This document shows positions 1,482 to 53,100 of a stretch of DNA of 64,000 bases, piece after piece. Each line of letters begins with the position of its first letter. Within the stretch, counting starts at the first letter, position 1. Source of the DNA: Megaustenia siamemsis (taxonomy: Eukaryota > Mollusca > Gastropoda > Stylommatophora > Ariophantidae); the NCBI GenBank assembly GCA_032433765.1, contig JAVIAB010000092.1, forward strand, positions 65,351,666 to 65,415,665, written 5' to 3'. The translations under genes and the position numbers were made by a program. The notes beneath the pieces are model-generated. The model made no database searches. It was not told the origin of the DNA and was given only the letters and a program-made list of their open reading frames with translations.

Positions 1482-1487
1482 ATTGTA
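1482..1487. repeat. Left target-site duplication of the palindromic element
   Basis: ATTGTA lies directly outside the left terminus and recurs at 14592-14597 directly outside the right one. Sequence beyond both is unrelated, which places the boundary exactly. Confidence 0.8.
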
Positions 1488-1547
1488 AGTAGTATATCAG
1501 GAAGGATTTGATTAGCATTTGGCCCGTAAATTAACAAAGATATATAG

Positions 1548-1566
1548 TAGGCGCGCGGCGCGCCTA
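1548..1566. repeat. GC-rich 19-base palindrome near the left terminus
   Basis: Two 9-base arms (TAGGCGCGC and its complement) surround one central base, about 60 bases inside the end of an otherwise AT-rich element. The mirror copy is at 14513-14531. It could bind a protein at the terminus, but no function is proven. Confidence 0.6.
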
Positions 1567-1750
1567 ATGTACTGTAGGCGCAGGGGAGTTAACCGTGACC
1601 GCTGGTCCCAGTGACCCCGGAAGTGACCTGTTTATGTCTGGTTTTTGCTGACTTTGGAGTTCTTTATGTACTTGATCGTTAGTGATAGGTTAGTAGATTA
1701 TACAACATCAATGAAAAACAATCAATATAAAACAGAAGACAAAGATATAT

Positions 1751-1764
1751 TTTATTCTTTTATT
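1751..1764 (-). terminator. Poly(A) signals after the left polymerase gene
   Basis: Complementary TTTATT hexamers at 1751 and 1759, mirroring 14316-14329. Confidence 0.5.
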
Positions 1765-2086
1765 ATCTCAATAGGTGTATAACATACATTGATATTATAT
1801 AACATTACAAAAATATTCAGTACATTGAGTCAATATATAGTACATGGATAACATTTATTTATAGATAGGTAGTTGGATGTCTGCTTAGCGTTGTGTCATA
1901 AATGAATCATAAGGGGTGAAACTGTTAGAGATTCCTGGTTAGGCTAAGCTGGTAGTGTAAAGAGTTAAATATCTAGAGGCGTAGTCGAGACGTTATCATC
2001 AGCTACCTTTCTTTTTATATAGAAATAGGAAAGAGCATTTCTTGTTTGACTGTAGGAAAATATAGAATTATTTAAGACTTTGAAAC

Positions 2087-5000
2087 CTACATTTTTTTTT
2101 CCTTGGCCTTTTGCGTGGCGAGAACCTCTAAAAACATATCTTTATCTAATTTGTTGTGTTGCTTGCTTAGCCCTTTACAACTGATTTTATCGTAATCCCC
2201 ACTACAATGGTACGTCTTACTACATAAGCTAACAAGAGCTGTCCCTTCGTACTCTAGTTTAAAAAGACCGGGCGTTCGTTTGGTGTATGCTTTAACACCC
2301 TTACAGTTTATACAGTCTGTTTTGCTAATATGCTCATCGCAAAACTCGGCAGGAAACCAGTCTTTATATACACTATTAAACTCATCCCACAGACCTGACT
2401 TAACTATGTCCTCTAGCTTAGGTGCGCTTAAAGCCAAGTATAAACTATCAGTATCTGTTTCACATAACTGAAAGTTGGACCTATCTACAAACTTATCGAG
2501 GAAGTCATAATAAAATTCCAACATACGAAGTTTTGCATATTGATAGACGAAGAAACCGATTTGTAGGGGTAAGTCCCAAACAGTTTTCTTTTTCTCCATC
2601 TCAATTTCAAAAAGATCCTCCCCTATTTCAGTCATCTTTTTAAACCGGGAACTATTAACCATTTTCAATATCTCATCCCCCTGAACGTACGAGACAGCGC
2701 TATGATTGGCCTTATTGGTTAGAGTCTTCCCGTAGGCTGAGTTTCCTAAGAGCTTCATCGTATCGCTTACTATAGATTGACTTTCATCTAGATCACCAGC
2801 CCTCCTAGCGTCAGAAACCATTTCGCCAAACTTTCTAAAACAACTAGACGGTTGATATTCTATCACTTGATAAATTTTTGTTACCACCAATCCATGGTCT
2901 AAATACCATTTTAACAGTGGCGTTGCCAACAAAATTTTTCCCCGACATAACTACCTATTAGGGTGCGACGAGGGGTTGACAACAAGTTATGTTTGAGGGC
3001 ATATTCACCCATAAACGGGCCAATATCAGCACGCGTGACGTCAATATTTTTGAAAATTGGAGTCATCTCACTGAAATGTTCCTTCAGACGGTCGGGGACG
3101 TGTAGATCACATTCCACTAAACCAAAACATGTCCCATCTGAAACAGAAGCCAGAATCTGTTTATCACTGAGAGGGAGCCCTTCTTTAGAGTAAGAGGGTC
3201 TAGCTCTAGGGATGGCTTTAGAAAGGAAAGCCCTAATGGTTGGGTCAGCCTTTTTCAGAGCCTGCCACTCACATTCCCACATAACTTCTACTGGAACTTT
3301 TACCTCCTCGGTTAGGTAGGTGTGTATCTCACATGTTTTTTCAAACAGCTCGAACAAGGGCTTATTATTAACAGGGTTTCTATCTTTATCTTTGGTGAGG
3401 GGACAGTCTTTGTGACCATGGTACAGACAACCATGAAAATTGTAGCCTCTTCTATTGGATTTATCCCACCCATCCACGGGGATATTTCTAGCACCTAAGC
3501 GAAACTCCCTCCCGTTAAACTGAGTTTTCAACTCCACCCCTTTTTGGTGGGCGACCCACGTTAACCACTCTCTACTTTGTTGGACATAATAGTTATCTTT
3601 TTCGACCCTAAACCCGGTCTCCATTCTTCTAATAATTGGGTAATCTGTTGGCATTGGGTTCATCAGAGCCCAAAGATACAACGCGTTGGCATCGTAACCT
3701 TGGATGGATTTGACTACCTTTCCGCCCCTAATAAGCGTTTTGTCTACCTCGTGATACCTATGGAAAATTATAGAGGGACCCCCAACGATATTATCTCTAA
3801 TCATTTTGTGTAGACTCGCCTGTTTGCTCGAACATAAACTAAACATTACACCCCTATCAACGGTCTTGAAAAGATACTTTAAACAAACACCCGGAACCGA
3901 AATGGCGTCTTTAAAACAGTCTACACCCCGCTCCCCATAAAAGCGAACCTGCTGCGCCAAGGCTTCTAAAAGGGGACTACATCTTTGTTGTTATACCACA
4001 CCAAAAAGTCCCTAAGTGTGGTCATGTTATTGTCCTGCCATACCTTTTTGCACAGAGCGTACTCCTCCTTGGAAATATTGGAATTTTTAACGACGAATAA
4101 AACGCTTCGTGTGGGGTAGTTCTGTCTCCTCCAACTTTTGGGGGTCGTCTATATATTCATAACAAAAGTAACCCTTTGTCTCACTAATCTTATAAGCGGC
4201 CAGATATTTACTATAGCTAAACCCGGGGCTAGATAGTTTACTATATCTAAGAATTTTAGATTCGGCGTTGCAATACACATAAAGTTATTGTTTCTTTTAA
4301 CTATAAACTTGAACGGTTTTGGTACTTTGTAGTCTACGTCCATTTTATCCTCTTCTTCTTCTTCTTCTTCTTCTTCTTCTTCACCCACTTGGGCAGTGGC
4401 ATCCATGAAGTGCTTTATTAAATAAGGTTTAATGACGTTGACGTCATATTTCCCCGAGTTAAACCCTATTACTGGAAGCTCTTTTAAATACTCATCAAAC
4501 CTAACTACTATCTTGTCTTTATTCAGAGCATGGAGTTGATTAAAAATACTTTCAAACCGAGCTCGCAACAACGAGTATGCCTTAGCAGCTATACCAGTGA
4601 GATAATCAACCATCTGACTAACTAAACCTGTGGGTCACCCTTCGTTATGAAGCATATTGGGCCCTCCCACCCGGGGACATTTGACGCTATAGAGCAGGAG
4701 AGAGGGACGTGTTTGGCTACAAAGGTAGTCGAGTGCGTCTCTTTGGGAACATTCCCATTATCAAAATAACATTCATAATCGAATGTCGCCCTGAATGGGT
4801 AAATAAAACACGCTGGAGTACTTATTCCTTCAGCGCTGATTGCGTCCCATACACTTTCAGGTGAAGAATAAACACCACCTTTATATGTCTCTACAGCCAT
4901 ATCCCCATTACACGTTTTTTCGTGCTTATCCATACGCCAAAACTCTTTCCACAATTTCCCACATTTTCCACAAGAAAAGCTTTTACTAGCCCTGGAAAGA

Positions 5001-6271
5001 TCGTTTATAAAAGAAGTGATTTTTGTAAAGTAAAAGACGGAGAGTTTCACTATAACTACTACCACTTCTCAGGACAATACGCAAGGCTTGCTCAGTATCA
5101 AATTCAAAAATATCTATGTTTATTGAAAAACAATTTTCTAAGAGAGGCATTTCGGCAAGAGTTACACCCAGAAAGTTACCTAACTTTAGAGAGGGGTTAA
5201 ACTGTTTGAAAAGTAGTCTTGAAGCCTTCCTAACATCAGTATTTGAAGCGCCTCGATGGACAGCTAGACAACGGAAGAAGCAGAGATTATCATTGTAAAC
5301 TTTAGAATGGGAATCGGTTTGAAGGATATTAATACCATGATTTGATGCAATGTAGGGTGGGATATCTAGCAGACACCCTATAGGATAATCTTGAAGTTTA
5401 TAAATATAAACACTCGTACTGACTAAGGCTTCTAAAGTATATTTGGTTGTCTCCCTGTTTTTATTTGCATACCCTAATATATCACTTTCATTTAATCTAT
5501 CAACAAATGTTTCAAAATCATGTCTGTTGTTAACTAACAAAGGTTTGTCTAACCTTGTCGCATTATTCGAGCTGGCGTGAAAGTAACGCAGTCCCTGTGT
5601 CTCTCTATGTCTTAAGACTAGATGATGACTATAATTCACCTTGAAACGCTTTTTCTGGCCTTGGAAAATTGGGTTTACAAGGGTCTCCCAATCTATAGGA
5701 GTATCAGGCTGATGAAATATAGTGTACGTGTCCATGTATTTGTTCCTACGTTCATGTGTTCTAATAGCTAACCAGTTGTTCTTATATATCTTCTTAATAT
5801 CTTGAGGTAACTTATTTAAAGAGTCTATTTCATTAATAAGTCTTGGTCTCTTTGAGGGTTCTTGAGTCGAACTCTTTACTGCCCGCTTGCGTGAGGTTGT
5901 CGATACCAGGGGACCGGCTTGCGTTGAGGGTGTTGAGGTGTCCACAGCTATGTCATGGCTAGCAAGATGTACTCGCAGATGGCTTGTTCCAGTGAAGCTT
6001 TGTTGGCAGATATGGCAGATATGTGGGGTAACACTGGTTCTTTCGATGGTATATGATCGGCTGACACAGGAGTTGGTGACGCTGGAACTACTGATACAAG
6101 AGAGGCAGGATGCTCTGTCTTGATATGTTTGGCAAGATTGTCAGCTCTATTATAAATTCGTTCACAAACATCACATTTGTATTCCTGACGCCCATGTACA
6201 CTAGCAACATGGCGTTTTAGGTCTCGGCTCCGGGTGAAAGTTTTGGAGCAGATATGACAAGTGTTAGACAT
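2087..6271 (-). pseudogene. Protein-primed family B DNA polymerase with N-terminal C2H2 zinc fingers, left copy (six frame breaks)
   Basis: This is the mirror of the gene at 9785-13993. The start is the ATG whose complement lies at 6269-6271, right after the AG acceptor of a 5'-UTR intron. The product would copy DNA from a protein primer. Order: C2H2 fingers, a linker, an FRCL-type Cys motif, a CxxC...HxxxxC finger, exonuclease motifs, polyglutamate (11 residues), then palm motifs including DTDS. The frame breaks near 6036, 5008 (two bases), 4624, 4226, 4114 and 2937. At each place the right arm differs by one base in a short homopolymer (two bases, TA, at 5008) and stays open. That suggests long-read errors or very recent decay, so the gene may be functional in reality. 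As given it is broken. Confidence 0.8.
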
Positions 6272-6466
6272 CTGTAGAAAAGAAATTGAAACATTACAAC
6301 TAAAGAGTAAAGAACAGTAAACATCACAAGAAAAGTATATAACAAGATACACAACTTATCGAAATTAGGGCACAAAAGTAACACGTGGATACTAAACAAC
6401 CAACTTATCGAAAATAGGTTACTAAAGTAACATACTATAATATTAAAGAACTAAGATAACACTTAC
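6272..6466 (-). other. 5'-UTR intron of the left polymerase gene
   Basis: Mirror of 9590-9784: ACTTAC (donor complement) at 6461-6466, acceptor complement at 6272-6275. Confidence 0.7.
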
Positions 6467-6547
6467 TTTTTATGTGTTTGAAGGCACGAGACACGTCCGG
6501 CGGCAACAACTGTAAGCGAAAGTCTGATTAGAAGCTTCACAGTCGCG

Positions 6548-6554
6548 TTATATA
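6548..6554 (-). promoter_or_regulatory. TATA box of the left polymerase gene
   Basis: Mirror of 9502-9508 in the left arm. The two promoters fire outward from the centre of the palindrome. Confidence 0.6.
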
Positions 6555-6565
6555 TACGCCAGAAA

Positions 6566-6720
6566 CACCGGAAGTGTTACTAAAAATAGAACTGACCGCT
6601 GATGCAATACCGGAAGTGTTACTAAAAATAGCTTTTGACTGCTGACGTGATGCCCGTGGAGTTTCTAAAAATAGATTTTGACCTATGATGCAATACCAGG
6701 CAACTTTATAGGAGTTTTTC
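6566..6720. repeat. 42-bp direct repeats upstream of the left promoter
   Basis: Three decaying copies of CCGGAAGTGTTACTAAAAAT followed by a TGACC/TGCTGATGCAATA segment start at 6568, 6610 and 6652. Their place just upstream of the TATA box suggests enhancer or initiator-protein sites. Confidence 0.6.
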
Positions 6721-7870
6721 CCCTTGACCCTTTATGAGGGGACGCATATGAAACTGTTAGAAATAGTAAATTTAACCTAGTGGCATACCCCAGATGTTAT
6801 ATTAGACATCCCCATAGCAAAAATTTACTTAAAACTCACTTTTATGGTGGTTACCCCCTGACCCATTTTTGAGGGCTACGCCCATGAAACTGTTACAATT
6901 AGTAAATTTAACAGCTAGGGTTACTCCAAACTTTATATTAACCATCTCCGTATCAAGAATTTACATAAAAACAACTTTTGAAATTACTACCCCTGTACCC
7001 ATTTTTGGCGGTTACGCCCATGAAACTGTTAAAAATAGTAAATTTAACATCTAGACATACCCAAAACTTTATATTAAGCATCCCCGTATCAAGAATTTAC
7101 TAAAAAACCACTTTTATGAGTGTTGCCCCCTTACCCATTTTTGGCGGTTACGCCCATGAAACTGTTAAAAATAGTCAATTTAACAGCTAGACATACCACA
7201 AACTTTATATTAAGCAACCCCATATCAAGAATTTACATAAAAATCACTTTTGAAATTACTACCCCTGTACCCATTTTTGGCAGTTACGCCCATGAAATCG
7301 ATAAAAAAAATTGAAATTTAACACCTAGACATACCACAAACTTTATATTAAGCATCCCCGTATCAAGAATTTACATAAAAACAACTTTTGAAATTACTAC
7401 CCCAGTACCCATTTTTGGCGGTTACGCCCATGAAACTGTTAAAAATAGTCAATTTAACATCTAGACATATCCCAAACTTTATATTAAGCATCCCCATATC
7501 AAGAATTTACATAAAAACAACTTTTGAAATTACTACCCCTGTACCGATTTTTGGCGGTTACGCCCATGAATTCGATAAAAAATTGAAATTTAACATCTAG
7601 ACATACCCCAAACTTTATATTAAGCATCCCCGTATCAAGAATTTACATAAAAACAACTTTTGAAATTACTACCCCTGTACCCATTTTTGGCGGTTACGCC
7701 CATGAAACTGTTAAAAATAGTCAATTTAACATCTAGACATACCCCAAACTTTATATTAAGCATCCCCATATCAAGAATTTACATAAAAACAACTGTTGAA
7801 ATTACTACCCCTGTACCCATTTTTGGCGGTTACGCCCATGAAATCGATAAAAAAAACTGAAGTTTAACCT
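6715..7870. repeat. 136-bp tandem repeats in the left arm, about nine copies
   Basis: The landmark ACGCCCATGAAA (or a close variant) occurs at 6742, 6878, 7014, 7150, 7286, 7424, 7560, 7696 and 7832, a period of 136 with one interval of 138. Short 60-70 codon frames repeat with the units and share one peptide pattern; they are a by-product of the period, not genes. Confidence 0.85.
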
Positions 7871-7959
7871 ATTGGCATACATCAAACATAATATGTGACA
7901 CGCCCATGTATCAAATTTGCCTAAAAAATCAACCAAAAATTAGTAGTATACAATGTCAA

Positions 7960-8098
7960 ATAGGGACCCCAAAAGTGCGTTCAAACGCGCATAAATCCTT
8001 ATATAAATACTCTACACGCACATCAACGCACATTTTTTGGTGCGGTTTTTCCTTATATGAGAGTCTTCATTTTTTCTTATATGAGAGTCTAATCCTAA
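7960..8098. other. Unique central spacer (loop) of the palindrome
   Basis: These 139 bases are the only non-palindromic part of the element. They contain two copies of CTTATATGAGAGTCT 25 bases apart (8052 and 8077) and a TATATAAATA stretch. There is no open frame of note. Confidence 0.8.
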
Positions 8099-8187
8099 TT
8101 GACATTGTATACTACTAATTTTTGGTTGATTTTTTAGGCAAATTTGATACATGGGCGTGTCACATATTATGTTTGATGTATGCCAAT

Positions 8188-9340
8188 AGGTTAAACTTCA
8201 ATTTTTTTTATCGATTTCATGGGCGTAACCGCCAAAAATGGGTACAGGGGTAGTAATTTCAAAAGTTGTTTTTATGTAAATTCTTGATATGGGGATGCTT
8301 AATATAAAGTTTGGGGTATGTCTAGATGTTAAATTGACTATTTTTAACAGTTTCATGGGCGTAACCGCCAAAAATGGGTACAGGGGTAGTAATTTCAAAA
8401 GTTGTTTTTATGTAAATTCTTGATACGGGGATGCTTAATATAAAGTTTGGGGTATGTCTAGATGTTAAATTTCAATTTTTTATCGAATTCATGGGCGTAA
8501 CCGCCAAAAATCGGTACAGGGGTAGTAATTTCAAAAGTTGTTTTTATGTAAATTCTTGATATGGGGATGCTTAATATAAAGTTTGGGATATGTCTAGATG
8601 TTAAATTGACTATTTTTAACAGTTTCATGGGCGTAACCGCCAAAAATGGGTACTGGGGTAGTAATTTCAAAAGTTGTTTTTATGTAAATTCTTGATACGG
8701 GGATGCTTAATATAAAGTTTGTGGTATGTCTAGGTGTTAAATTTCAATTTTTTTTATCGATTTCATGGGCGTAACTGCCAAAAATGGGTACAGGGGTAGT
8801 AATTTCAAAAGTGATTTTTATGTAAATTCTTGATATGGGTTGCTTAATATAAAGTTTGTGGTATGTCTAGCTGTTAAATTGACTATTTTTAACAGTTTCA
8901 TGGGCGTAACCGCCAAAAATGGGTAAGGGGGCAACACTCATAAAAGTGGTTTTTTAGTAAATTCTTGATACGGGGATGCTTAATATAAAGTTTTGGGTAT
9001 GTCTAGATGTTAAATTTACTATTTTTAACAGTTTCATGGGCGTAACCGCCAAAAATGGGTACAGGGGTAGTAATTTCAAAAGTTGTTTTTATGTAAATTC
9101 TTGATACGGAGATGGTTAATATAAAGTTTGGAGTAACCCTAGCTGTTAAATTTACTAATTGTAACAGTTTCATGGGCGTAGCCCTCAAAAATGGGTCAGG
9201 GGGTAACCACCATAAAAGTGAGTTTTAAGTAAATTTTTGCTATGGGGATGTCTAATATAACATCTGGGGTATGCCACTAGGTTAAATTTACTATTTCTAA
9301 CAGTTTCATAGGCGTCCCCTCATAAAGGGTCAAGGGGAAA
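8188..9340. repeat. 136-bp tandem repeats in the right arm, about nine copies
   Basis: Reverse-complement counterpart of 6715-7870, keeping the same order of variant units. The arrays therefore arose before, or are homogenised with, the arm duplication. Confidence 0.85.
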
Positions 9341-9490
9341 AACTCCTATAAAGTTGCCTGGTATTGCATCATAGGTCAAAATCTATTTTAGAAACTCCAC
9401 GGGCATCACGTCAGCAGTCAAAAGCTATTTTTAGTAACACTTCCGGTATTGCATCAGCGGTCAGTTCTATTTTTAGTAACACTTCCGGTG
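9336..9490. repeat. 42-bp direct repeats upstream of the right promoter
   Basis: Mirror of 6566-6720 in the right arm. Confidence 0.6.
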
Positions 9491-9501
9491 TTTCTGGCGT
9501 A

Positions 9502-9508
9502 TATATAA
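9502..9508 (+). promoter_or_regulatory. TATA box of the right polymerase gene
   Basis: TATATAA lies 283 bases before the ATG and about 80 before the 5'-UTR splice donor. A TCAGACT initiator-like sequence sits about 30 bases downstream. Confidence 0.6.
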
Positions 9509-9589
9509 CGCGACTGTGAAGCTTCTAATCAGACTTTCGCTTACAGTTGTTGCCGCCGGACGTGTCTCGTGCCTTCAAACACATAAAAA

Positions 9590-9784
9590 GTAAGTGTTAT
9601 CTTAGTTCTTTAATATTATAGTATGTTACTTTAGTAACCTATTTTCGATAAGTTGGTTGTTTAGTATCCACGTGTTACTTTTGTGCCCTAATTTCGATAA
9701 GTTGTGTATCTTGTTATATACTTTTCTTGTGATGTTTACTGTTCTTTACTCTTTAGTTGTAATGTTTCAATTTCTTTTCTACAG
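9590..9784 (+). other. 5'-UTR intron of the right polymerase gene
   Basis: GTAAGT donor at 9590, then a pyrimidine-rich tract ending TTTCTACAG at 9784. The ATG follows at once. Length 195 bases, identical in the left arm. It explains why the frame reading through from 9704 is not a real N-terminus and shows that the gene is built for nuclear transcription. Confidence 0.7.
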
Positions 9785-10678
9785 ATGTCTAACACTTGTC
9801 ATATCTGCTCCAAAACTTTCACCCGGAGCCGAGACCTAAAACGCCATGTTGCTAGTGTACATGGGCGTCAGGAATACAAATGTGATGTTTGTGAACGAAT
9901 TTATAATAGAGCTGACAATCTTGCCAAACATATCAAGACAGAGCATCCTGCCTCTCTTGTATCAGTAGTTCCAGCGTCACCAACTCCTGTGTCAGCCGAT
10001 CATATACCATCGAAAGAACCCAGTGTTACCCCACATATCTGCCATATCTGCCAACAAAGCTTCACTGGAACAAGCCATCTGCGAGTACATCTTGCTAGCC
10101 ATGACATAGCTGTGGACACCTCAACACCCTCAACGCAAGCCGGTCCCCTGGTATCGACAACCTCACGCAAGCGGGCAGTAAAGAGTTCGACTCAAGAACC
10201 CTCAAAGAGACCAAGACTTATTAATGAAATAGACTCTTTAAATAAGTTACCTCAAGATATTAAGAAGATATATAAGAACAACTGGTTAGCTATTAGAACA
10301 CATGAACGTAGGAACAAATACATGGACACGTACACTATATTTCATCAGCCTGATACTCCTATAGATTGGGAGACCCTTGTAAACCCAATTTTCCAAGGCC
10401 AGAAAAAGCGTTTCAAGGTGAATTATAGTCATCATCTAGTCTTAAGACATAGAGAGACACAGGGACTGCGTTACTTTCACGCCAGCTCGAATAATGCGAC
10501 AAGGTTAGACAAACCTTTGTTAGTTAACAACAGACATGATTTTGAAACATTTGTTGATAGATTAAATGAAAGTGATATATTAGGGTATGCAAATAAAAAC
10601 AGGGAGACAACCAAATATACTTTAGAAGCCTTAGTCAGTACGAGTGTTTATATTATAAACTTCAAGATTATCCTATAG
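9785..10678 (+). CDS. PolB gene piece 1: three C2H2 zinc fingers and linker
   Basis: First open piece. Finger 1 is CHICSKTFTRSRDLKRH, finger 2 CDVCERIYNRADNLAKH, finger 3 CHICQQSFTGTSHLRVH, all with the C-x2-C-x12-H spacing of DNA-binding fingers. A basic, Ser/Thr-rich stretch follows (KRAVKSS...SKRPRL), which could be a nuclear localisation signal. After it comes a region I do not recognise containing FKVNYSHHLVLRHRETQG. The last eight residues are out of frame, after a one-base deletion near 10652. Fingers on the replicase could tether it to the element's own repeats or to chromatin; this is inference. Confidence 0.75.
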   Translation: MSNTCHICSKTFTRSRDLKRHVASVHGRQEYKCDVCERIYNRADNLAKHIKTEHPASLVSVVPASPTPVSADHIPSKEPSVTPHICHICQQSFTGTSHLRVHLASHDIAVDTSTPSTQAGPLVSTTSRKRAVKSSTQEPSKRPRLINEIDSLNKLPQDIKKIYKNNWLAIRTHERRNKYMDTYTIFHQPDTPIDWETLVNPIFQGQKKRFKVNYSHHLVLRHRETQGLRYFHASSNNATRLDKPLLVNNRHDFETFVDRLNESDILGYANKNRETTKYTLEALVSTSVYIINFKIIL

Positions 10679-12057
10679 GGTGTCTGCTAGATATCCCACC
10701 CTACATTGCATCAAATCATGGTATTAATATCCTTCAAACCGATTCCCATTCTAAAGTTTACAATGATAATCTCTGCTTCTTCCGTTGTCTAGCTGTCCAT
10801 CGAGGCGCTTCAAATACTGATGTTAGGAAGGCTTCAAGACTACTTTTCAAACAGTTTAACCCCTCTCTAAAGTTAGGTAACTTTCTGGGTGTAACTCTTG
10901 CCGAAATGCCTCTCTTAGAAAATTGTTTTTCAATAAACATAGATATTTTTGAATTTGATACTGAGCAAGCCCTGCGTATTGTCCTGAGAAGTGGTAGTAG
11001 TTATAGTGAAACTCTCCGTCTTTTACTTTACAAAAATCACTTCTTTTATATAAACGATCTTTCCAGGGCTAGTAAAAGCTTTTCTTGTGGAAAATGTGGG
11101 AAATTGTGGAAAGAGTTTTGGCGTATGGATAAGCACGAAAAAACGTGTAATGGGGATATGGCTGTAGAGACATATAAAGGTGGTGTTTATTCTTCACCTG
11201 AAAGTGTATGGGACGCAATCAGCGCTGAAGGAATAAGTACTCCAGCGTGTTTTATTTACCCATTCAGGGCGACATTCGATTATGAATGTTATTTTGATAA
11301 TGGGAATGTTCCCAAAGAGACGCACTCGACTACCTTTGTAGCCAAACACGTCCCTCTCTCCTGCTCTATAGCGTCAAATGTCCCCGGGTGGGAGGGCCCA
11401 ATATGCTTCATAACGAAGGGTGACCCACAGGTTTTAGTTAGTCAGATGGTTGATTATCTCACTGGTATAGCTGCTAAGGCATACTCGTTGTTGCGAGCTC
11501 GGTTTGAAAGTATTTTTAATCAACTCCATGCTCTGAATAAAGACAAGATAGTAGTTAGGTTTGATGAGTATTTAAAAGAGCTTCCAGTAATAGGGTTTAA
11601 CTCGGGGAAATATGACGTCAACGTCATTAAACCTTATTTAATAAAGCACTTCATGGATGCCACTGCCCAAGTGGGTGAAGAAGAAGAAGAAGAAGAAGAA
11701 GAAGAAGAAGAAGAAGAAGAAGAAGAGGATAAAATGGACGTAGACTACAAAGTACCAAAACCGTTCAAGTTTATAGTTAAAAGAAACAATAACTTTATGT
11801 GTATTGCAACGCCGAATCTAAAATTCTTAGATATAGTAAACTATCTAGCCCCCGGGTTTAGCTATAGTAAATATCTGGCCGCTTATAAGATTAGTGAGAC
11901 AAAGGGTTACTTTTGTTATGAATATATAGACGACCCCCAAAAGTTGGAGGAGACAGAACTACCCCCACACGAAGCGTTTTATTCGTCGTTAAAAAATTCC
12001 AATATTTCCAGGAGGAGTACGCTCTGTGCAAAAAGGTATGGCAGGACAATAACATGA
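10654..12057 (+). CDS. PolB gene piece 2: FRCL motif, fourth finger and exonuclease motifs I-II
   Basis: The frame is open from 10654 (YKLQDYPIG); the first ATG at 10906 is internal and not a true start. NLCFFRCLAVHRG resembles the Cys box of OTU-like peptidases reported in some PolB fusions, but I see no complete triad. Next is CGKCGKLWKEFWRMDKHEKTC, a CxxC...HxxxxC finger, then Exo I (DYE) and Exo II (NSGKYD) of the proofreading domain. A 17-residue polyglutamate run is encoded by GAA codons at 11677-11727. The last ~18 codons are out of frame after a one-base loss near 12010. Confidence 0.7.
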   Translation, partial: YKLQDYPIGCLLDIPPYIASNHGINILQTDSHSKVYNDNLCFFRCLAVHRGASNTDVRKASRLLFKQFNPSLKLGNFLGVTLAEMPLLENCFSINIDIFEFDTEQALRIVLRSGSSYSETLRLLLYKNHFFYINDLSRASKSFSCGKCGKLWKEFWRMDKHEKTCNGDMAVETYKGGVYSSPESVWDAISAEGISTPACFIYPFRATFDYECYFDNGNVPKETHSTTFVAKHVPLSCSIASNVPGWEGPICFITKGDPQVLVSQMVDYLTGIAAKAYSLLRARFESIFNQLHALNKDKIVVRFDEYLKELPVIGFNSGKYDVNVIKPYLIKHFMDATAQVGEEEEEEEEEEEEEEEEEDKMDVDYKVPKPFKFIVKRNNNFMCIATPNLKFLDIVNYLAPGFSYSKYLAAYKISETKGYFCYEYIDDPQKLEETELPPHEAFYSSLKNSNISRRSTLCAKRYGRTIT

Positions 12058-13121
12058 CCACACTTAGGGACTTTTTGGTGTGGTATAACAACAAAGATGT
12101 AGTCCCCTTTTTAGAAGCCTTGGCGCAGCAGGTTCGCTTTTATGGGGAGCGGGGTGTAGACTGTTTTAAAGACGCCATTTCGGTTCCGGGTGTTTGTTTA
12201 AAGTATCTTTTCAAGACCGTTGATAGGGGTGTAATGTTTAGTTTATGTTCGAGCAAACAGGCGAGTCTACACAAAATGATTAGAGATAATATCGTTGGGG
12301 GTCCCTCTATAATTTTCCATAGGTATCACGAGGTAGACAAAACGCTTATTAGGGGCGGAAAGGTAGTCAAATCCATCCAAGGTTACGATGCCAACGCGTT
12401 GTATCTTTGGGCTCTGATGAACCCAATGCCAACAGATTACCCAATTATTAGAAGAATGGAGACCGGGTTTAGGGTCGAAAAAGATAACTATTATGTCCAA
12501 CAAAGTAGAGAGTGGTTAACGTGGGTCGCCCACCAAAAAGGGGTGGAGTTGAAAACTCAGTTTAACGGGAGGGAGTTTCGCTTAGGTGCTAGAAATATCC
12601 CCGTGGATGGGTGGGATAAATCCAATAGAAGAGGCTACAATTTTCATGGTTGTCTGTACCATGGTCACAAAGACTGTCCCCTCACCAAAGATAAAGATAG
12701 AAACCCTGTTAATAATAAGCCCTTGTTCGAGCTGTTTGAAAAAACATGTGAGATACACACCTACCTAACCGAGGAGGTAAAAGTTCCAGTAGAAGTTATG
12801 TGGGAATGTGAGTGGCAGGCTCTGAAAAAGGCTGACCCAACCATTAGGGCTTTCCTTTCTAAAGCCATCCCTAGAGCTAGACCCTCTTACTCTAAAGAAG
12901 GGCTCCCTCTCAGTGATAAACAGATTCTGGCTTCTGTTTCAGATGGGACATGTTTTGGTTTAGTGGAATGTGATCTACACGTCCCCGACCGTCTGAAGGA
13001 ACATTTCAGTGAGATGACTCCAATTTTCAAAAATATTGACGTCACGCGTGCTGATATTGGCCCGTTTATGGGTGAATATGCCTCAAACATAACTTGTTGT
13101 CAACCCCTCGTCGCACCCTAA
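12054..13121 (+). CDS. PolB gene piece 3: Exo III and palm motif A
   Basis: It starts within the coding sequence. WYNNKDV is the Exo III motif (Yx3D), and GYDANALYLWALMNPMP is palm motif A, supplying the first catalytic Asp and the nucleotide-contact region. HGHKDCPL follows, within the segment where protein-primed polymerases carry their TPR1 insertion; I assign TPR1 by position only. The last ~13 residues are out of frame after a one-base loss near 13082. Confidence 0.75.
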   Translation: MTTLRDFLVWYNNKDVVPFLEALAQQVRFYGERGVDCFKDAISVPGVCLKYLFKTVDRGVMFSLCSSKQASLHKMIRDNIVGGPSIIFHRYHEVDKTLIRGGKVVKSIQGYDANALYLWALMNPMPTDYPIIRRMETGFRVEKDNYYVQQSREWLTWVAHQKGVELKTQFNGREFRLGARNIPVDGWDKSNRRGYNFHGCLYHGHKDCPLTKDKDRNPVNNKPLFELFEKTCEIHTYLTEEVKVPVEVMWECEWQALKKADPTIRAFLSKAIPRARPSYSKEGLPLSDKQILASVSDGTCFGLVECDLHVPDRLKEHFSEMTPIFKNIDVTRADIGPFMGEYASNITCCQPLVAP

Positions 13122-13993
13122 TAGGTAGTTATGTCGGGGAAAAAATTTTGTTGGCAACGCCACTGTTAAAATGGTATTTAGACCATGGATTGGTGGTAAC
13201 AAAAATTTATCAAGTGATAGAATATCAACCGTCTAGTTGTTTTAGAAAGTTTGGCGAAATGGTTTCTGACGCTAGGAGGGCTGGTGATCTAGATGAAAGT
13301 CAATCTATAGTAAGCGATACGATGAAGCTCTTAGGAAACTCAGCCTACGGGAAGACTCTAACCAATAAGGCCAATCATAGCGCTGTCTCGTACGTTCAGG
13401 GGGATGAGATATTGAAAATGGTTAATAGTTCCCGGTTTAAAAAGATGACTGAAATAGGGGAGGATCTTTTTGAAATTGAGATGGAGAAAAAGAAAACTGT
13501 TTGGGACTTACCCCTACAAATCGGTTTCTTCGTCTATCAATATGCAAAACTTCGTATGTTGGAATTTTATTATGACTTCCTCGATAAGTTTGTAGATAGG
13601 TCCAACTTTCAGTTATGTGAAACAGATACTGATAGTTTATACTTGGCTTTAAGCGCACCTAAGCTAGAGGACATAGTTAAGTCAGGTCTGTGGGATGAGT
13701 TTAATAGTGTATATAAAGACTGGTTTCCTGCCGAGTTTTGCGATGAGCATATTAGCAAAACAGACTGTATAAACTGTAAGGGTGTTAAAGCATACACCAA
13801 ACGAACGCCCGGTCTTTTTAAACTAGAGTACGAAGGGACAGCTCTTGTTAGCTTATGTAGTAAGACGTACCATTGTAGTGGGGATTACGATAAAATCAGT
13901 TGTAAAGGGCTAAGCAAGCAACACAACAAATTAGATAAAGATATGTTTTTAGAGGTTCTCGCCACGCAAAAGGCCAAGGAAAAAAAAATGTAG
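13094..13993 (+). CDS. PolB gene piece 4: palm motifs B and C, C-terminus
   Basis: KLLGNSAYGKTL is palm motif B (Kx3NSxYG) and ETDTDSLYLAL is motif C, with the two Asp residues that bind catalytic metal. A small Cys cluster follows (CDEHISKTDCINCKG). The piece ends in a lysine-rich tail at a TAG stop (13991-13993). All key residues are present, so nothing in this piece argues against an active polymerase. Confidence 0.8.
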   Translation: MLSTPRRTLIGSYVGEKILLATPLLKWYLDHGLVVTKIYQVIEYQPSSCFRKFGEMVSDARRAGDLDESQSIVSDTMKLLGNSAYGKTLTNKANHSAVSYVQGDEILKMVNSSRFKKMTEIGEDLFEIEMEKKKTVWDLPLQIGFFVYQYAKLRMLEFYYDFLDKFVDRSNFQLCETDTDSLYLALSAPKLEDIVKSGLWDEFNSVYKDWFPAEFCDEHISKTDCINCKGVKAYTKRTPGLFKLEYEGTALVSLCSKTYHCSGDYDKISCKGLSKQHNKLDKDMFLEVLATQKAKEKKM

Positions 13994-14315
13994 GTTTCAA
14001 AGTCTTAAATAATTCTATATTTTCCTACAGTCAAACAAGAAATGCTCTTTCCTATTTCTATATAAAAAGAAAGGTAGCTGATGATAACGTCTCGACTACG
14101 CCTCTAGATATTTAACTCTTTACACTACCAGCTTAGCCTAACCAGGAATCTCTAACAGTTTCACCCCTTATGATTCATTTATGACACAACGCTAAGCAGA
14201 CATCCAACTACCTATCTATAAATAAATGTTATCCATGTACTATATATTGACTCAATGTACTGAATATTTTTGTAATGTTATATAATATCAATGTATGTTA
14301 TACACCTATTGAGAT

Positions 14316-14329
14316 AATAAAAGAATAAA
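14316..14329 (+). terminator. Poly(A) signals after the right polymerase gene
   Basis: Two AATAAA hexamers (14316 and 14324) lie about 325 bases after the stop codon; another is at 14221. They would end an outward transcript inside the element. Confidence 0.5.
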
Positions 14330-14512
14330 ATATATCTTTGTCTTCTGTTTTATATTGATTGTTTTCATTGATGTTGTATAATCTACTAACCTATCACTAA
14401 CGATCAAGTACATAAAGAACTCCAAAGTCAGCAAAAACCAGACATAAACAGGTCACTTCCGGGTCACTGGGACCAGCGGTCACGGTTAACTCCCCCTGCG
14501 CCTACAGTACAT

Positions 14513-14531
14513 TAGGCGCGCCGCGCGCCTA
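14513..14531. repeat. GC-rich 19-base palindrome near the right terminus
   Basis: Mirror copy of 1548-1566, 60 bases from the right end. Confidence 0.6.
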
Positions 14532-14591
14532 CTATATATCTTCGTTAATTTACGGGCCAAATGCTAATCAAATCCTTCCTGATATACTACT

Positions 14592-14597
14592 ATTGTA
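14592..14597. repeat. Right target-site duplication of the palindromic element
   Basis: ATTGTA is the partner of 1482-1487. A 6-bp duplication is typical of Polinton integrase-type insertion. Confidence 0.8.
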
Positions 14598-21824: not shown

Positions 21825-23232
21825 GGTGTTTTTAAAGTCGCAGTGCAGTGAATATTTCTAATATTCAGTAAATGACGTAATCATCATCTACGTGCCACAA
21901 TTTTGTAAACCACATTTATGAACAAACCGCTGCTTCCTTTAAGGTTTTATTTACGTAAAGGACGGGCACTACGCTACTTTCACTGTCTCATTGCTTGAAG
22001 GAAATGGTGTTGACGATTGAAAACAGGGTATTTCTGGTTGAGCATGTCTTTCGTAATGGCGGTAAATATACGGATGAGGTCATTAGACAATTCGTGAAGA
22101 AATTACCAGACTCACAAGTCCCTCACCGAAATTCTGTTACAAAATTGATCAAAAAGTTTCGTGAAACCGGTAGTGTGGTAGATGCATACCGATCTGGAAG
22201 ACCTTCAATTTCACAAGACCAAATTATGGAACTCCAAGACAGAATTACAATGAGTCCAAATGCATCTTTAAACCACTTGTCTCAACATGTGCAAATATCT
22301 AAGAGTTCTGTTCACAAGGTTTTAAGAAGTGAACTACACTATCGTCCATACAAATTAACTGAAGTGTCTCAACTCCAAGAAAGAGATTATGAATCCCGTT
22401 TAAACAACTGCATGTGGTTTCAGAATTTTATTTATGAACATGGCGCTGCCATCCTTGACGTCACTTTTTTCACTGATGAGGCCTGGTTTCATTTATCCGG
22501 TTATGTGAACAGTCAGAACAATCGGCTGTGGAGCAGTGAAAACCCCCATGAATTTCATCAAGTGCCGCTTTACGATCAAAAAGTCGGAGTGTGGTGCGCT
22601 ATAAGTCGTATGCGGATAATAGGACCTATATTTTTTAATGAAACAATAAATGCAGAACGTTACCGTACTTTAATTCTGGAACCGTTCATAGCACACCTTA
22701 CAGAACGGGAAATTATGGAATCCTGGTTTCAGCAGGATGGGGCAACAGCACACACAGCCACAACAACACTCAATTATTTAGAAAGCATATTTGCAAATCG
22801 CATTATTTCACGTGGAATCTGGCCTGCTCGTTCACCAGATCTAACACCCCCAGATTATTATATGTGGGGGGGGCATTGAAGGGGAAAGTTTATGAAAATA
22901 ATCCGCAGACAATTAATGACCTAAAGACTGAAATAGTAGACAAGATTAAACAAATATCACCAGACATTATTCTGAAGGTTTTCGCAAATATGGAAAGACG
23001 AATCACGACATGTCTTGAGGCCCGTGGTGGACATTTTCAACATATGCTTTAGGCACAACTTTATTGTGTTAATACCAACATTACCCATTATAAGCTCGCC
23101 GATAGCAGTCAAGTATATTTGAATAATACCATTTATTTTACAATTTGTGTGACGCATTAGTTAACCGCATTTCTGGTGACGTTTTTCTTCGAGAGTAGAA
23201 ATTCACTGCACTGCAACTTTAAAAACACCCTG
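21822..23232 (+). mobile_element. Mariner-like DNA transposon, nearly complete
   Basis: Terminal inverted repeats of 32 bp (21822-21853 and 23201-23232) match with one mismatch and begin CAGGGTGTTTTTAAAGT. TA flanks both ends. It carries one transposase gene of the same orientation. Total length 1,411 bp fits the mariner/Tc1 superfamily. Confidence 0.85.
22004..23052 (+). pseudogene. Mariner-like transposase with one frame break
   Basis: This is the cut-and-paste DDE transposase of the enclosing element. The first ATG is at 22004 (MVLTIENRVFLVEHVF); an upstream in-frame TTG is unlikely. The N-terminal ~110 residues form paired helix-turn-helix domains (NSVTKLIKKFRETGSV, GRPSISQDQIMELQDRI, ISKSSVHKVLRSEL). 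Catalytic residues: D in TFFTDEAWFHLSG, D in WFQQDGATAHTA, D in SPDLTPPDYYMWG. There are 38 residues between the second and third, more than the 34 of classic mariners. The frame breaks in a run of G at 22865-22872, after MWG, and continues in another frame to 23052. A one-base homopolymer error or mutation would explain it; otherwise the protein looks complete. Confidence 0.8.
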
Positions 23233-28059: not shown

Positions 28060-29337
28060 ATGAATATAAAGGCAAAATATTTTACTGAGCATAACATTGC
28101 TATAAAGATTTATCAATACTTCTGCAGAGAGCGTAAAAAGGGACATCTTTATTGTTCTTTATCAAACCCTGAGAAGAGAACAATGCATATTTTAGGTTTG
28201 TGTAAACGTTCATTTGATCGAATAGTTAAAGGAAGCGGATATTTATTGCCAACAAATGCAAGAAAGCAAGGAATGAAAGAAACGTTAGACAGTTTTGATA
28301 AGGACCTAGTAAAAAGAGAAATCTGTCGAATGTTTGATATAAACGAAGAAATGACACTTAGAAAGTTGAAGCTTTGGCTGAAAACTAACAACGACATTGA
28401 AATATCAAAAACATCATTATGGAAAATATTAAGAAGTGCAGGCTTCACCTTTAGAAAGTATGCTGGTGGAAAAAAAATTATTTGTGAGAAGCTACATCTA
28501 GTAGCTCTTAGAAGCAAGTATTTACGTGAAGTGAAGGAAATGCGCGAAAATGATTATGATATTGTTTATTTAGATGAAACTTGGATCAACGCTCATCATA
28601 CAAATGAAAAGAAATGGCAGTTAGCAGATGGAAGTATTAAAAGATCAGTACCAAGCAGTAAAGGGCAACGTTTGATAGTTGCACATGCAGGTAGCAGACA
28701 TAATGGGTTGTTGCAGAATGCTCATCTCGTTTTCATTTCAAAATCCATAGACAATAGAGACTACCACTCCGAAATGAATGGGCACATATTTAAAGACTGG
28801 ATCGAGAAAAGTATCCTTCCAATATTAGATCGACCTTCTTGTCTGATAATGGACAATGCTTCATACCATAACGTAGTTAACGTAGAAGATAGAATCCCAA
28901 CATCATCAAGTACAAAAGATGCAATCAAAACGTGGCTCATAAAAGAACACATACAAGTTAACGACAGCTACTTGAAACCCGAATTACTTAGCCTTGTAAA
29001 ACAGACACAACGTACAAAGATATTTAAAATAGACAAATTAATTCAAGAACATGGCCATAGATGTTTGAGACTACTTCCATATCATGCACACTTAAATCCT
29101 ATAGAACTAGTTTGGGCAAAAGTTAAAGGACACGTAGCATATACAAATAAAACTTTCAAATTATGCGATGTTGAGACACTTACAAATCAGGCTCTATCAA
29201 ATATAAATAAAGACTACTGGGTAAAATGTGAGGATCATGTGTTACGACAAGAAGAGGAATATTGGAAAAAGGATGGTTTGTTGTTTGTTCAGCCGAAAGC
29301 AGTAATCGACCTATTTGACTCGTCTGATTCTGAATGA
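28060..29337 (+). CDS. IS630/Tc1-mariner-type DDE transposase, long-spaced (Sailor-like)
   Basis: An unbroken frame of about 425 residues. The ATG at 28060 is preferred over an upstream in-frame GTG at 28054. The N-terminal third holds helix-turn-helix regions (MTLRKLKLWLKTNNDIEIS, ISKTSLWKILRSAGFTFRK) for binding the transposon ends. Catalytic residues: D in IVYLDETWINAHH, D in CLIMDNASYHNV, E in HAHLNPIELVWAKVKGHV. Between the second D and the E lie 83 residues, far more than the 34 of Tc1. This is close to the DD82E spacing of the family named Sailor; that assignment is from memory and tentative. The C-terminus is acidic (DLFDSSDSE). Intact frame plus matching ends suggest recent activity. 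Confidence 0.8.
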   Translation: MNIKAKYFTEHNIAIKIYQYFCRERKKGHLYCSLSNPEKRTMHILGLCKRSFDRIVKGSGYLLPTNARKQGMKETLDSFDKDLVKREICRMFDINEEMTLRKLKLWLKTNNDIEISKTSLWKILRSAGFTFRKYAGGKKIICEKLHLVALRSKYLREVKEMRENDYDIVYLDETWINAHHTNEKKWQLADGSIKRSVPSSKGQRLIVAHAGSRHNGLLQNAHLVFISKSIDNRDYHSEMNGHIFKDWIEKSILPILDRPSCLIMDNASYHNVVNVEDRIPTSSSTKDAIKTWLIKEHIQVNDSYLKPELLSLVKQTQRTKIFKIDKLIQEHGHRCLRLLPYHAHLNPIELVWAKVKGHVAYTNKTFKLCDVETLTNQALSNINKDYWVKCEDHVLRQEEEYWKKDGLLFVQPKAVIDLFDSSDSE

Positions 29338-50148: not shown

Positions 50149-50170
50149 TTGTTATGAGGTCGGTGAACAG

Positions 50171-53100
50171 ACGCTACTGGATAGTGCTAGAGAACAATGC
50201 AGGTTTCTGAAAGATGCTACTGGATAGTGCTAGAGAACAATGCAGATCCCTGAAAGATGCAACTGGATAGTGCTAGAGAACAATGAGGTCCCTGAAAGAC
50301 GCTACTGCATAGTGCTAGAGAACAATGCAGGTCCCTGAAAGACGCTACTGGATAGTGCTAGAGAACAATGCAGGTCCCTAAAAGACGCTACTGGATAGTG
50401 TTAGAGAACAATGCAGGTCCCTGAAAGACGCTACTGGATAGTGCTAGAGAACAATGCAGATCCCTGAAAGATGCTACTGGATAGTGCTAGAAAACGATGA
50501 AGGTCCCTGAAAGACGCTACTGCATAGTGCTAGAGAACAATGCAGGTCCCTGAAAGACGCTACTGGATAGTGCTAGAGAACCATGCAGGTCCCTGAAAGA
50601 CTCTACTGGATAGTGCTATAGAACAATGCAGGTCCCTGAAAGACGCTACTAGTTAGTGCTAGAGAACAATGCAGGTCCTTGATAGACGATACTGGATAGT
50701 GCTAGAGAACAATGCAGGTCCCTGAAAGACGCTACTGGATAGTGCTAAAGAACAATGAAGGTCCCTGAAAGACGTTAATGGATAGTGCTAGAGAACAATG
50801 CAGGTCCCTGAAAGACGCTACTTGATAGTGATAGAGAACAATGCAGGTCCCTGAAAGACGCTACTGGATAGTGCTAGATAACAATGCAGGTCCCTGAAAG
50901 ACGCTACTGGATAGTGCTTGAGTGTATTGGACGCCTGTAAAAGACGCCACTGGATAGTGCTAGAGAACAATGCAGGTCCCTGAAAGACGGTACTGTATAG
51001 TGCTAGGTAACAATGCAGGTCCCTGAAAGACGTTACTGTATAGTGCTAGAGAACAATGCAGGTCCCTGAAAGACGCTACTTGATAGTGCTAGAGAACAAT
51101 GCAGGTCACTGTAAGACGCTACTGGATAGTGCTAGAGAACAATGAAGGTCCCTGAAAGACGCTACTAGATAGTGATAGAGAGCAATGCAGATCCCTGAAA
51201 GACGCTATTGAATAGTGCTAGAGTATATTGGATGCCTGTGAAAGACGTTACTGGATAGTGCTAGAGAACAAAGCAGGTCCCTGAAAGACGCTACTGGATA
51301 GTGCTAGAGAACAATGCAGGTCCCTGAAAGACGCTACTGGATAGTGCTAGAGAACAATGCAGGTCCCTGAAAGACGCTACTGGATAGTGCTAGAGAACAA
51401 TGAAGGTCCCTGAAAGACGCTACTGGATAGTGCTAGAGAACAATGAAGGTCACTGAAAGACGCTACTGAATTGTGCTAGAGAACAATGCAGGTCCCTGAA
51501 AGACGTTACTGGATAGTGCTAGAGAACAATGAAGGTCCCTGAAAGACGCTACTCGATAGTGCTAGATAACAATGCAGGTCCCTGAAAGACGATACTGGAT
51601 AGTGCTTGAGTATATTGGACGCCTGTAAAAGACGCTACTGGATAGTGCTAGAGAACAATGAAGGTCCATGAAAGACGCTACTCGATAGTGCTAGAGAACA
51701 ATGCAGGTCCCTGAAGGGCGCACTGGATAGTGCTAGAGAATAATGCAGGTCCATGAAAGACGCTACTGGATAGTGCTAGAGAACAATGCAGGTTCCTGAA
51801 AGACGCTACTGGATAGTGCTAGAGAACAATGCAGGTCCCTGATAGACGCTACTGGATAGTGCTAGAGTACAATGAAGGTCCCTGAAAGACGCTACTAGAT
51901 AGTGCTAGAGAACAATGCAGGTCCTTGATAGACGCTACTGGATAGTTCTAGAGAACAATGCAGGTCCCTGAAAGACGCTACTGGATAGTGCTAAAGAACC
52001 ATGAAGGTCACTGAAAGACGTTAATGGATAGTGCTAGAGAACAATGCAGATCCCTGAAAGACGCTACTTGATAGTGATAGAGAACAATGAAGGTCCCTGA
52101 AAGACGCTACTGGATAGTACTAGATAACAATGCAGGTCCCTGAAAGATGCTACTGGATAGTGCTTGAGTGTATTGGACGCCTGTAAAAGACGCCACTGGA
52201 TAGTGCTAGAGAACAATGCAAGTCCCTGAAAGACGGTACTGTATAGTGCTAGAGAACAATGCAGGTCCCTGAAAGACGTTACTGTATATTGCTAGAGAAC
52301 AATGCAGGTCCCTGAAAGACGCTACTTGATAGTGCTAGAGAACAATGCAGGTCACTGTAAGACGCTACTGGATAGTGCTAGAGAACAATGAAGGTCCCTG
52401 AAAGACGCTACTAGATAGTGATAGAGAGCAATGCAGGTCCCTGAAAGACTCTATTGAATAGTGCTAGCGAATATTGGATGCCTGTGAAAGACGTTACTGG
52501 ATAGTGCTAGAGAACAAAGCGGGTCCCTGAAAGACGCTACTGGATAGTGCTAGAGAACAATACAGGTCCCTGAAAGACGCTACTGGATAGTGCTAGAGAA
52601 CAATGCAGGTCCCTGAAAGACGCTCCTGGATAGTGCTAGAGAACAATGAAGGTCCCTGAAAGACGCTACTGGATAGTGCTAGAGAACAATGAAGGTCACT
52701 GAAAGACGCTACTGAATTGTGCTAGAGAACAATGCAGGTCCCTGAAAGACGTTACTGGATAGAGCTTGAGTGTATTGGACGCCTGTAAAAGAAGCCACTG
52801 GATAGTGCTAGACAACAATGCAGGTCCCTGAAAGACGCTACTTGATAGTGCTAGAGAACAATGCATGTCCCTGAAAGACGTTACTGGATAGTGCTAGAGA
52901 ACAATGCAGGTCCATGAAAGACGCTACTTGATAGTGATAGAGAACAATGCAGGTCCCTGAAAGACTCTACTGGATAGTGCTAGATAACAATGCAGGTCCC
53001 TGAAAGACGCTACTGGATAGTGCTTGAGTATATTGGACGCCTGTAAAAGACGCTACTGGATAGTGCTAGAGAACAATGCAGGTCCCTGAAAGACGCTACT

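Follow-up and report, generated by a model that had tools for sequence, protein, structure and literature searches.

An apparently Maverick-derived transposon family whose palindromic genome carries a DNA polymerase gene in each arm

An element that is one long inverted repeat

In a 64,000-nucleotide stretch of the genome of the gastropod Megaustenia siamemsis (assembly GCA_032433765.1, contig JAVIAB010000092.1, positions 65,351,666 to 65,415,665 of the forward strand; hereafter the window), a mobile element of 13,104 bp at positions 1488-14591 forms a palindrome over almost its entire length. BLASTN of the window against itself aligns the arms (1488-7964 versus 14591-8094) over 6,505 columns at 99.37% identity with 6 mismatches, which upholds the 13-kb palindrome proposed in an initial annotation made from the sequence alone; the spacer, given there as 139 bp, has 129 unpaired bases (7965-8093). 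The sequence ATTGTA stands on both sides of the element, as expected from the clean target duplication that the same annotation had claimed. From outside to inside, each arm consists of a terminus beginning AGTAGTATATCAGG, a G+C-rich hairpin, a gene for a type B DNA polymerase (PolB) that reads outward from the centre, a tandem array of eight 136-bp units, and the centre itself. We find that the element is best explained as one copy of a large, Maverick-derived, PolB-only transposon family with a near-perfect palindromic genome. Its features are as follows.

1482..1487: left 6-bp target site duplication, ATTGTA
1488..7964, minus strand: left arm, with PolB directed away from the centre, 99.37% identical to the right arm
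1488..1512, plus strand: left terminus, 5'-AGTAGTATATCAGGAAGGATTTGAT, with the (AGT)2 Maverick-type end motif
1548..1566: subterminal hairpin, TAGGCGCG CGG CGCGCCTA, with an inverted twin in the right arm
2087..6271, minus strand: left-arm PolB pieces (2087-2821, 2911-3846, 4149-4613, 4622-4933, 4986-5735, 5948-6271)
6748..7843: left-arm inner tandem array, 136-bp unit, 8 copies
7942..8116: central module, 175 bp, bounded by AGTAGTATA...TATACTACT and containing the unpaired spacer, CTTATAT repeats and a covarying hairpin
7965-8093: unpaired spacer, 129 bp
8094..14591, plus strand: right arm, with PolB directed away from the centre
8215..9315: right-arm inner tandem array, 136-bp unit, 8.1 copies
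9785..10678, plus strand: right-arm PolB piece, N-terminal, with C2H2 zinc fingers
10906..12057, plus strand: right-arm PolB piece with FDYEC
12054..13121, plus strand: right-arm PolB piece with a VSR-endonuclease-like insertion
13259..13993, plus strand: right-arm PolB piece with NSAYGK and DTDSLY
14567..14591, minus strand: right terminus, ...TATACTACT-3', inverted copy of the left
14592..14597: right 6-bp target site duplication, ATTGTA

We take FDYEC (10906..12057) to be the exonuclease motif of the polymerase; the piece at 12054..13121 presumably holds motif A, and NSAYGK and DTDSLY (13259..13993) are presumably motifs B and C. The PolB frame of the window copy is interrupted in both arms, so that the initial annotation was right to place PolB in each arm and mistaken in calling each transcription unit complete. 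Over the outer 5.1 kb, 2 mismatches and 15 indels distinguish the window arms; 13 of the indels involve a single base, mostly in short homopolymers. Single-base indels greatly outnumber mismatches between the arms here and in two further stretches (L041 and L042), an excess that suggests sequence errors in palindromes and not true decay.

The family across the genome

The genome examined comprises 2.59 Gb in 155 contigs; all layouts were read from assembled sequence, and 40 matches were scored in each DNA search. Inverted arms are present at 20 of the 22 loci inspected, these 20 palindromes being the window copy and batches of ten (among them c1a, one arm of which is truncated), two, four and three. 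Twelve were compared over whole arms and the other eight over end stretches or part of an arm. Target duplications of 6 bp accompany 19 of the 20, at the borders of 16 simple insertions and at the outermost ends of three rearranged ones, which bears out the earlier proposal that the element moves as a palindrome. The C103 locus, whose left end is not established, is counted outside the 20, and at C47:66.33 no partner arm was found within the stretches read.

The terminus (first 1,013 bases) yielded 4,903 candidates, and 28 of the 40 scored make 14 inverted pairs. With a PolB segment there were 1,921 candidates; 32 of the 40 scored make 16 divergent pairs, none pairs in a non-divergent orientation, and eight are partnerless among these 40. 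The one partnerless match that was checked (C124:25.67) is a palindrome, and a single-arm PolB copy was not established. One terminus pattern occurs at 798 exact sites (395 forward and 403 reverse; reversed control, 0). Among the first 100 listed, 82 make 41 inverted pairs of 4.7-14.3 kb, and the variable positions of the pattern carry the same letters within the pair in 41 of 41. Terminus pairs alone are evidence for inverted ends, not for whole palindromes; the 798 sites suggest hundreds of palindromes. All 38 ends of 19 copies start with AGTAGTATA, a count that holds partly by construction because the ends of later copies were found via this motif. Other copies with the same termini are thus also palindromes with a shared kind of centre, and the genome is not one in which every other copy is an ordinary Polinton, the outcome that the initial annotation had named as damaging to its proposal.

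One copy, C106:4.53 (stretch L039, 3947-6363), has no long open reading frame (ORF); in both arms non-coding repeats stand in place of most of PolB. Its arms differ by 17 mismatches in 4,734 bp, and it has its own duplication, GTGGCG. We found no description of a palindromic PolB transposon family in the open-access full-text literature, a search that mostly does not extend to subscription papers.

Arm identity and selection on PolB

Over the outer 5.1 kb, the two arms of a copy differ at 1-13 sites in ten copies (0.02-0.26%), and the left arms of 11 copies differ from one another by 0.08-5.48%. The within-copy range leaves out c1a, whose right arm is truncated at 4.3 kb and whose matched 4.35 kb show 0 mismatches. 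A tree of 38 arm ends (820 bp) places the arms as sisters or identical in 16 of 19 copies, some of them with weak support.

An uninterrupted PolB stretch of 1,446-1,481 codons (stop to stop) is present in 9 of the 21 arms scanned. These nine open frames give 36 comparisons, 34 of them between copies, and the ratio of non-synonymous to synonymous substitution (dN/dS) lies at 0.19-0.29 in 32 of the 34. Synonymous divergence is at most 0.13 between copies, and 0.001 and 0.0036 within the two copies compared. Judged from these sequences, PolB is under purifying selection. Because the differences between copies are selected at the protein level, they arose while PolB was needed, in mobile lineages. 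The near-identity of arms within copies, the larger divergence between copies and the selection on PolB together indicate that the arms are re-made from each other; the near-identical halves point to an unusual fold-back mode of copying.

The central module and the hairpins

A 341-base centre query gave 1,696 candidates, of which the 40 best, all scored, align over the full length at 92-100%. The comparison covered 31 centres, 29 of them distinct. Thirteen belong to loci inspected above, and 18 come from a further 20 that were retrieved, two of which were excluded because their bounding motif is changed. Cut out at AGTAGTATA and TATACTACT, the 31 centres measure 167-216 bp. CTTATAT is repeated in one direction three or four times in each of 13 centres counted, and three times in the window. 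The short hairpin adjoining the first repeat varies in sequence and keeps its pairing: among 90 outer pairs in 15 distinct 16-mers (c137 excluded), 78 are Watson-Crick and 8 are G-T, compared with a mean of 58 and a maximum of 70 pairs in 10,000 reshufflings of the halves, a control that ignores relatedness. The subterminal hairpin also occurs in three sequence versions, with paired changes among copies. Similarity of centres does not run parallel to similarity of arms. The c106 copy has 127 of the 129 window spacer bases exactly, with arms 4.4% apart, and this comparison suggests an exchange of centres between lineages. The central module was also considered as a free-standing mini-element; none was seen among the 40 scored centre matches, which continue into arms.

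Affinity to Mavericks

The ends, the target duplications and the VSR-like insertion in PolB match group I Maverick/Polinton elements. According to the excerpted text of PMC8097293, no Maverick end type is commoner in vertebrates than (AGT)2//(ACT)2 with 6-bp duplications, and its authors tie the end repeats to the jumping-back step of protein-primed copying; a VSR-endonuclease-like insertion in PolB is a mark of group I Mavericks in the available part of PMC10328495. In the element studied here, the PolB insertion has a profile match to VSR structures (E 0.005), and VSR ranks first but weakly among fold matches (E 0.014, prob 0.99); the VSR-like stretch is modelled confidently within a PolB model that is poor elsewhere (mean predicted local distance difference test score of the model, 65.5). 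Kin of PolB with organism names come from sea anemone, snails or slugs, and lancelet, along with one record labelled as a bacterial metagenome-assembled genome. PolB is 43-49% identical to ten aligned kin, and 5 of the 11 members of the alignment match PF03175. Pfam scans of the window PolB pieces and two full frames returned zinc fingers and no match to a PolB model, and a single protein query of IMG/VR found no relative.

No integrase ORF was found in the window copy, whose ATG-started ORFs of at least 100 amino acids all lie within the PolB gene by position; the same scan found no capsid, protease or ATPase gene in the element. In the arms of other copies, open stretches of at least 150 codons likewise all fall within PolB, and a Pfam scan of four window ORFs and the two full frames gave no transposase family. 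As no integrase or capsid gene is seen, the element is Maverick-derived and not a Maverick by definition. Elsewhere in the genome, the double jelly-roll capsid domain PF21738 has at least 126 matches (of 270 candidates), mostly in open frames of about 436 codons; one example lies at C137:64247239-64248243. These matches suggest a recent burst of full Polintons, which probably exist in this genome and could be putative integrase donors.

Rearranged insertions

At c124a (C124:80.41-80.43), the duplication ACCGAG is found to the left of an extra 696-bp terminus piece and to the right of the palindrome. The piece and the palindrome are separated by about 3.4 kb that repeat the right host flank in inverted orientation (0 mismatches, 4 gaps). 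At C98:24.73, with the target duplication GTTGTT, the terminus piece measures about 460 bp and the inverted host flank about 1.44 kb; this flank copy has 0 mismatches and a single gap of 16 bases. C103 represents the direct version: a second end piece occurs about 2.7 kb after a right end, the end pieces differ by 1 indel and 0 mismatches over 1,326 bp, and the next bases are equal (147 compared). At c1a, three pieces lie within the duplication ATCGGC: the left arm in full, the right arm in truncated form, and one more piece. The centre and part of one arm are missing; the matched stretches have 0 mismatches, and two of the three pieces are direct copies of each other. Readings of c1a as a plain palindrome or as a nested insertion were dropped once this outer duplication was found. 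Since the duplication sits at the outermost termini of c124a, C98 and c1a, the rearrangement preceded or accompanied the joining of the ends. From these structures we infer that a mirrored host flank with an extra terminus piece results from DNA synthesis with template switching at integration.

In the C26:29.21 copy, one arm contains an insert of 170 bp, which by eye looks like a part of PolB found elsewhere in that arm. The centre motif was not found in the left stretch, and this copy is perhaps a one-arm template-switch product.

Other features of the window

A 43-bp satellite of 322 copies with marked strand skew occupies 50157-63999 and reaches the window edge. Two ORFs, at 22004-22879 (291 amino acids) and 28060-29337 (425 amino acids), appear DDE transposase-like by eye.

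Proposed mechanism and alternatives

The palindrome is inherited rather than accidental, and it is more widespread than first thought. We consider it probable that the family is an inherited palindromic replicon whose own PolB copies it as a hairpin and whose insertion depends on a Maverick-type integrase that would be supplied in trans. The element would be copied outside the chromosome as linear DNA, with PolB starting at the AGTAGT ends, and the displaced, self-complementary strand would fold into a hairpin of about 6.5 kb with the central module as its loop. Whether synthesis continued around this loop or the hairpin duplex was repaired, one arm would serve as template for the other, and the arms would be near-identical after each cycle. 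The integrase would attach the element ends to the chromosome at positions staggered by 6 bp. For a mirrored flank, an occasional outcome, one end would be joined first, the free 3' end would pair with the joined arm and be extended into host DNA, and copying would then jump back to an element end before the final joining. The initial annotation had suggested a snap-back origin. A fold-back process is supported by the near-identical arms and the two mirrored-flank insertions; a one-off defective genome is not, because the layout and the central module are family-wide, PolB is selected and the non-coding derivative is palindromic too.

Several observations weigh against the hairpin replicon. 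The analysis revealed neither an extrachromosomal form nor a terminal protein nor a helper integrase. The palindrome at C123:42.1 lacks a target duplication, and identity between the ends compared is 97.4%. Among the 100 listed terminus sites, 18 are partnerless, and four cases of neighbours in equal orientation occur (three --, one ++). The 820-bp tree splits the arms of C124:25.67, which differ by many 1-base indels, and lacks resolution for c91b and c26; for c26 and C124:25.67 (2 of 19 copies) the nearest arm over the outer 820 bp belongs to another copy. The inner array is unequal between arms in 6 of the 12 copies compared over whole arms, by about one to three 136-bp units in five of the six, and the re-making of arms is thus incomplete there. 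Two dN/dS values are higher, both on few changes: 0.43 for one c91b arm against c137 (14 changes) and 1.43 for c106 against c116 (4 synonymous, 20 non-synonymous). The central hairpin, moreover, could be kept perfect by templated correction or mutation of imperfect palindromes and not by selection.

Gene conversion after insertion could also give arm identity, if the element moves as ordinary double-stranded DNA and its arms are afterwards kept alike as in sex-chromosome palindromes. Two long inverted arms with a few hundred bases between them lend themselves to this process, and divergence within copies is tiny in copies of different subfamilies. We regard conversion as rather unlikely, because the differences between copies are selected at the protein level and so come from mobile lineages, which makes the insertions look young. 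Furthermore, the inverted flank that c124a acquired at insertion shows 0 mismatches in about 3.4 kb, which matches its arms (1 mismatch in 5,148), and the three pieces of c1a, two of them in direct orientation, have 0 mismatches where matched. The mirrored-flank and rearranged copies might instead have arisen through breaks repaired after insertion and not through transposition; flanks can be duplicated in inverted form when template switching occurs at breaks, and c1a is without its centre and part of one arm. With the 6-bp duplication at the outermost termini of c124a, C98 and c1a, we hold this to be improbable.

It is harder still to accept that every palindrome arose separately, by a snap-back accident on an ordinary element. 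Snap-back genomes are known in linear replicons, and the mirrored-flank insertions show that fold-back copying happens in this family, but all 31 centres compared (29 distinct) turn at one kind of conserved module, c1a having lost its centre, and no single-arm PolB copy was established among the 40 scored PolB matches. An assembly artefact, in which hairpin reads or mis-joins produced the inverted copies, is scarcely credible. Palindromes are a known artefact of sequencing after whole-genome amplification (PMC6218980, in the part available), and some of our copies are rich in 1-base indels; however, the 16 simple copies have unlike left and right host flanks that share a 6-bp duplication, small differences are private to each arm, terminus variants agree within pairs in 41 of 41, and C106:4.53 has replaced cargo in both arms. 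Such an artefact would fit the mirrored flanks of c124a and C98 taken alone, but the second terminus there shares its duplication with the far end.

Returning to the hairpin replicon, we advance a further idea more tentatively, as one that may well be wrong: a lineage lacking capsid and integrase that lives in this form and grows by mirroring. The centre, with Maverick-motif bounds and mirrored sequence directly outside them, shares its signature with c124a and C98, in which the inverted copy of host flank adjoins AGTAGT/ACTACT, and hence the palindrome may share their origin. It may have formed when a small palindromic element beside the PolB end of a Maverick produced a mirror copy of this end, and elements may become larger as nested palindromes that incorporate host DNA. 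Mismatches in the folded arms could be nicked by the VSR-like nuclease of PolB, which would help to keep the arms identical.

Long palindromes are normally unstable. This family keeps a whole-length palindrome as its working form, with 20 palindromes seen directly, and its copies preserve natural evidence of the way in which a Maverick-type polymerase replicates and inserts DNA. They suggest that PolB plus ends may spread without capsid or integrase genes of their own. If the arms are identical at birth, their divergence provides a built-in clock for each insertion, and the rearranged copies disclose a route for mirror-image copying of host DNA beside a mobile element.

Comparison with known systems

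The element resembles group I Maverick/Polinton elements, in the excerpts of PMC8097293 and PMC10328495, in its 5'-(AGT)2//(ACT)2-3' ends (PMC8097293), in its 6-bp target duplications (19 of 20 palindromes) and in a type B polymerase of PF03175 kin with a VSR-like insertion (PMC10328495). Unlike them, it shows no integrase, ATPase, protease or capsid ORF. Its inverted repeats are about 6.5 kb long, against 46-1,447 bp in the intact vertebrate Mavericks of PMC8097293, and instead of single-copy genes between short repeats it has a duplicated PolB, one per arm, and a central module. With Foldback/Galileo-type elements, as portrayed in the accessible portion of PMC3688188, it shares long inverted repeats that hold tandem arrays. 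In contrast to these, it is nearly all arm and carries a DNA polymerase, and a P/Mutator-superfamily transposase was not seen in the ORFs scanned. Parvoviruses such as adeno-associated virus 2 (AAV2) copy self-complementary DNA by a rolling hairpin. The element would resemble such hairpin replicators, in using self-complementary DNA for copying, only if our hairpin model holds, and it differs from them in having PolB and not their kind of replication nuclease. Finally, snap-back defective genomes occur in protein-primed linear replicons, where a palindrome arises from copying back along the new strand. Their product is palindromic, as is the element, whereas in the family described here the palindrome is inherited, PolB is selected and the centre is conserved.

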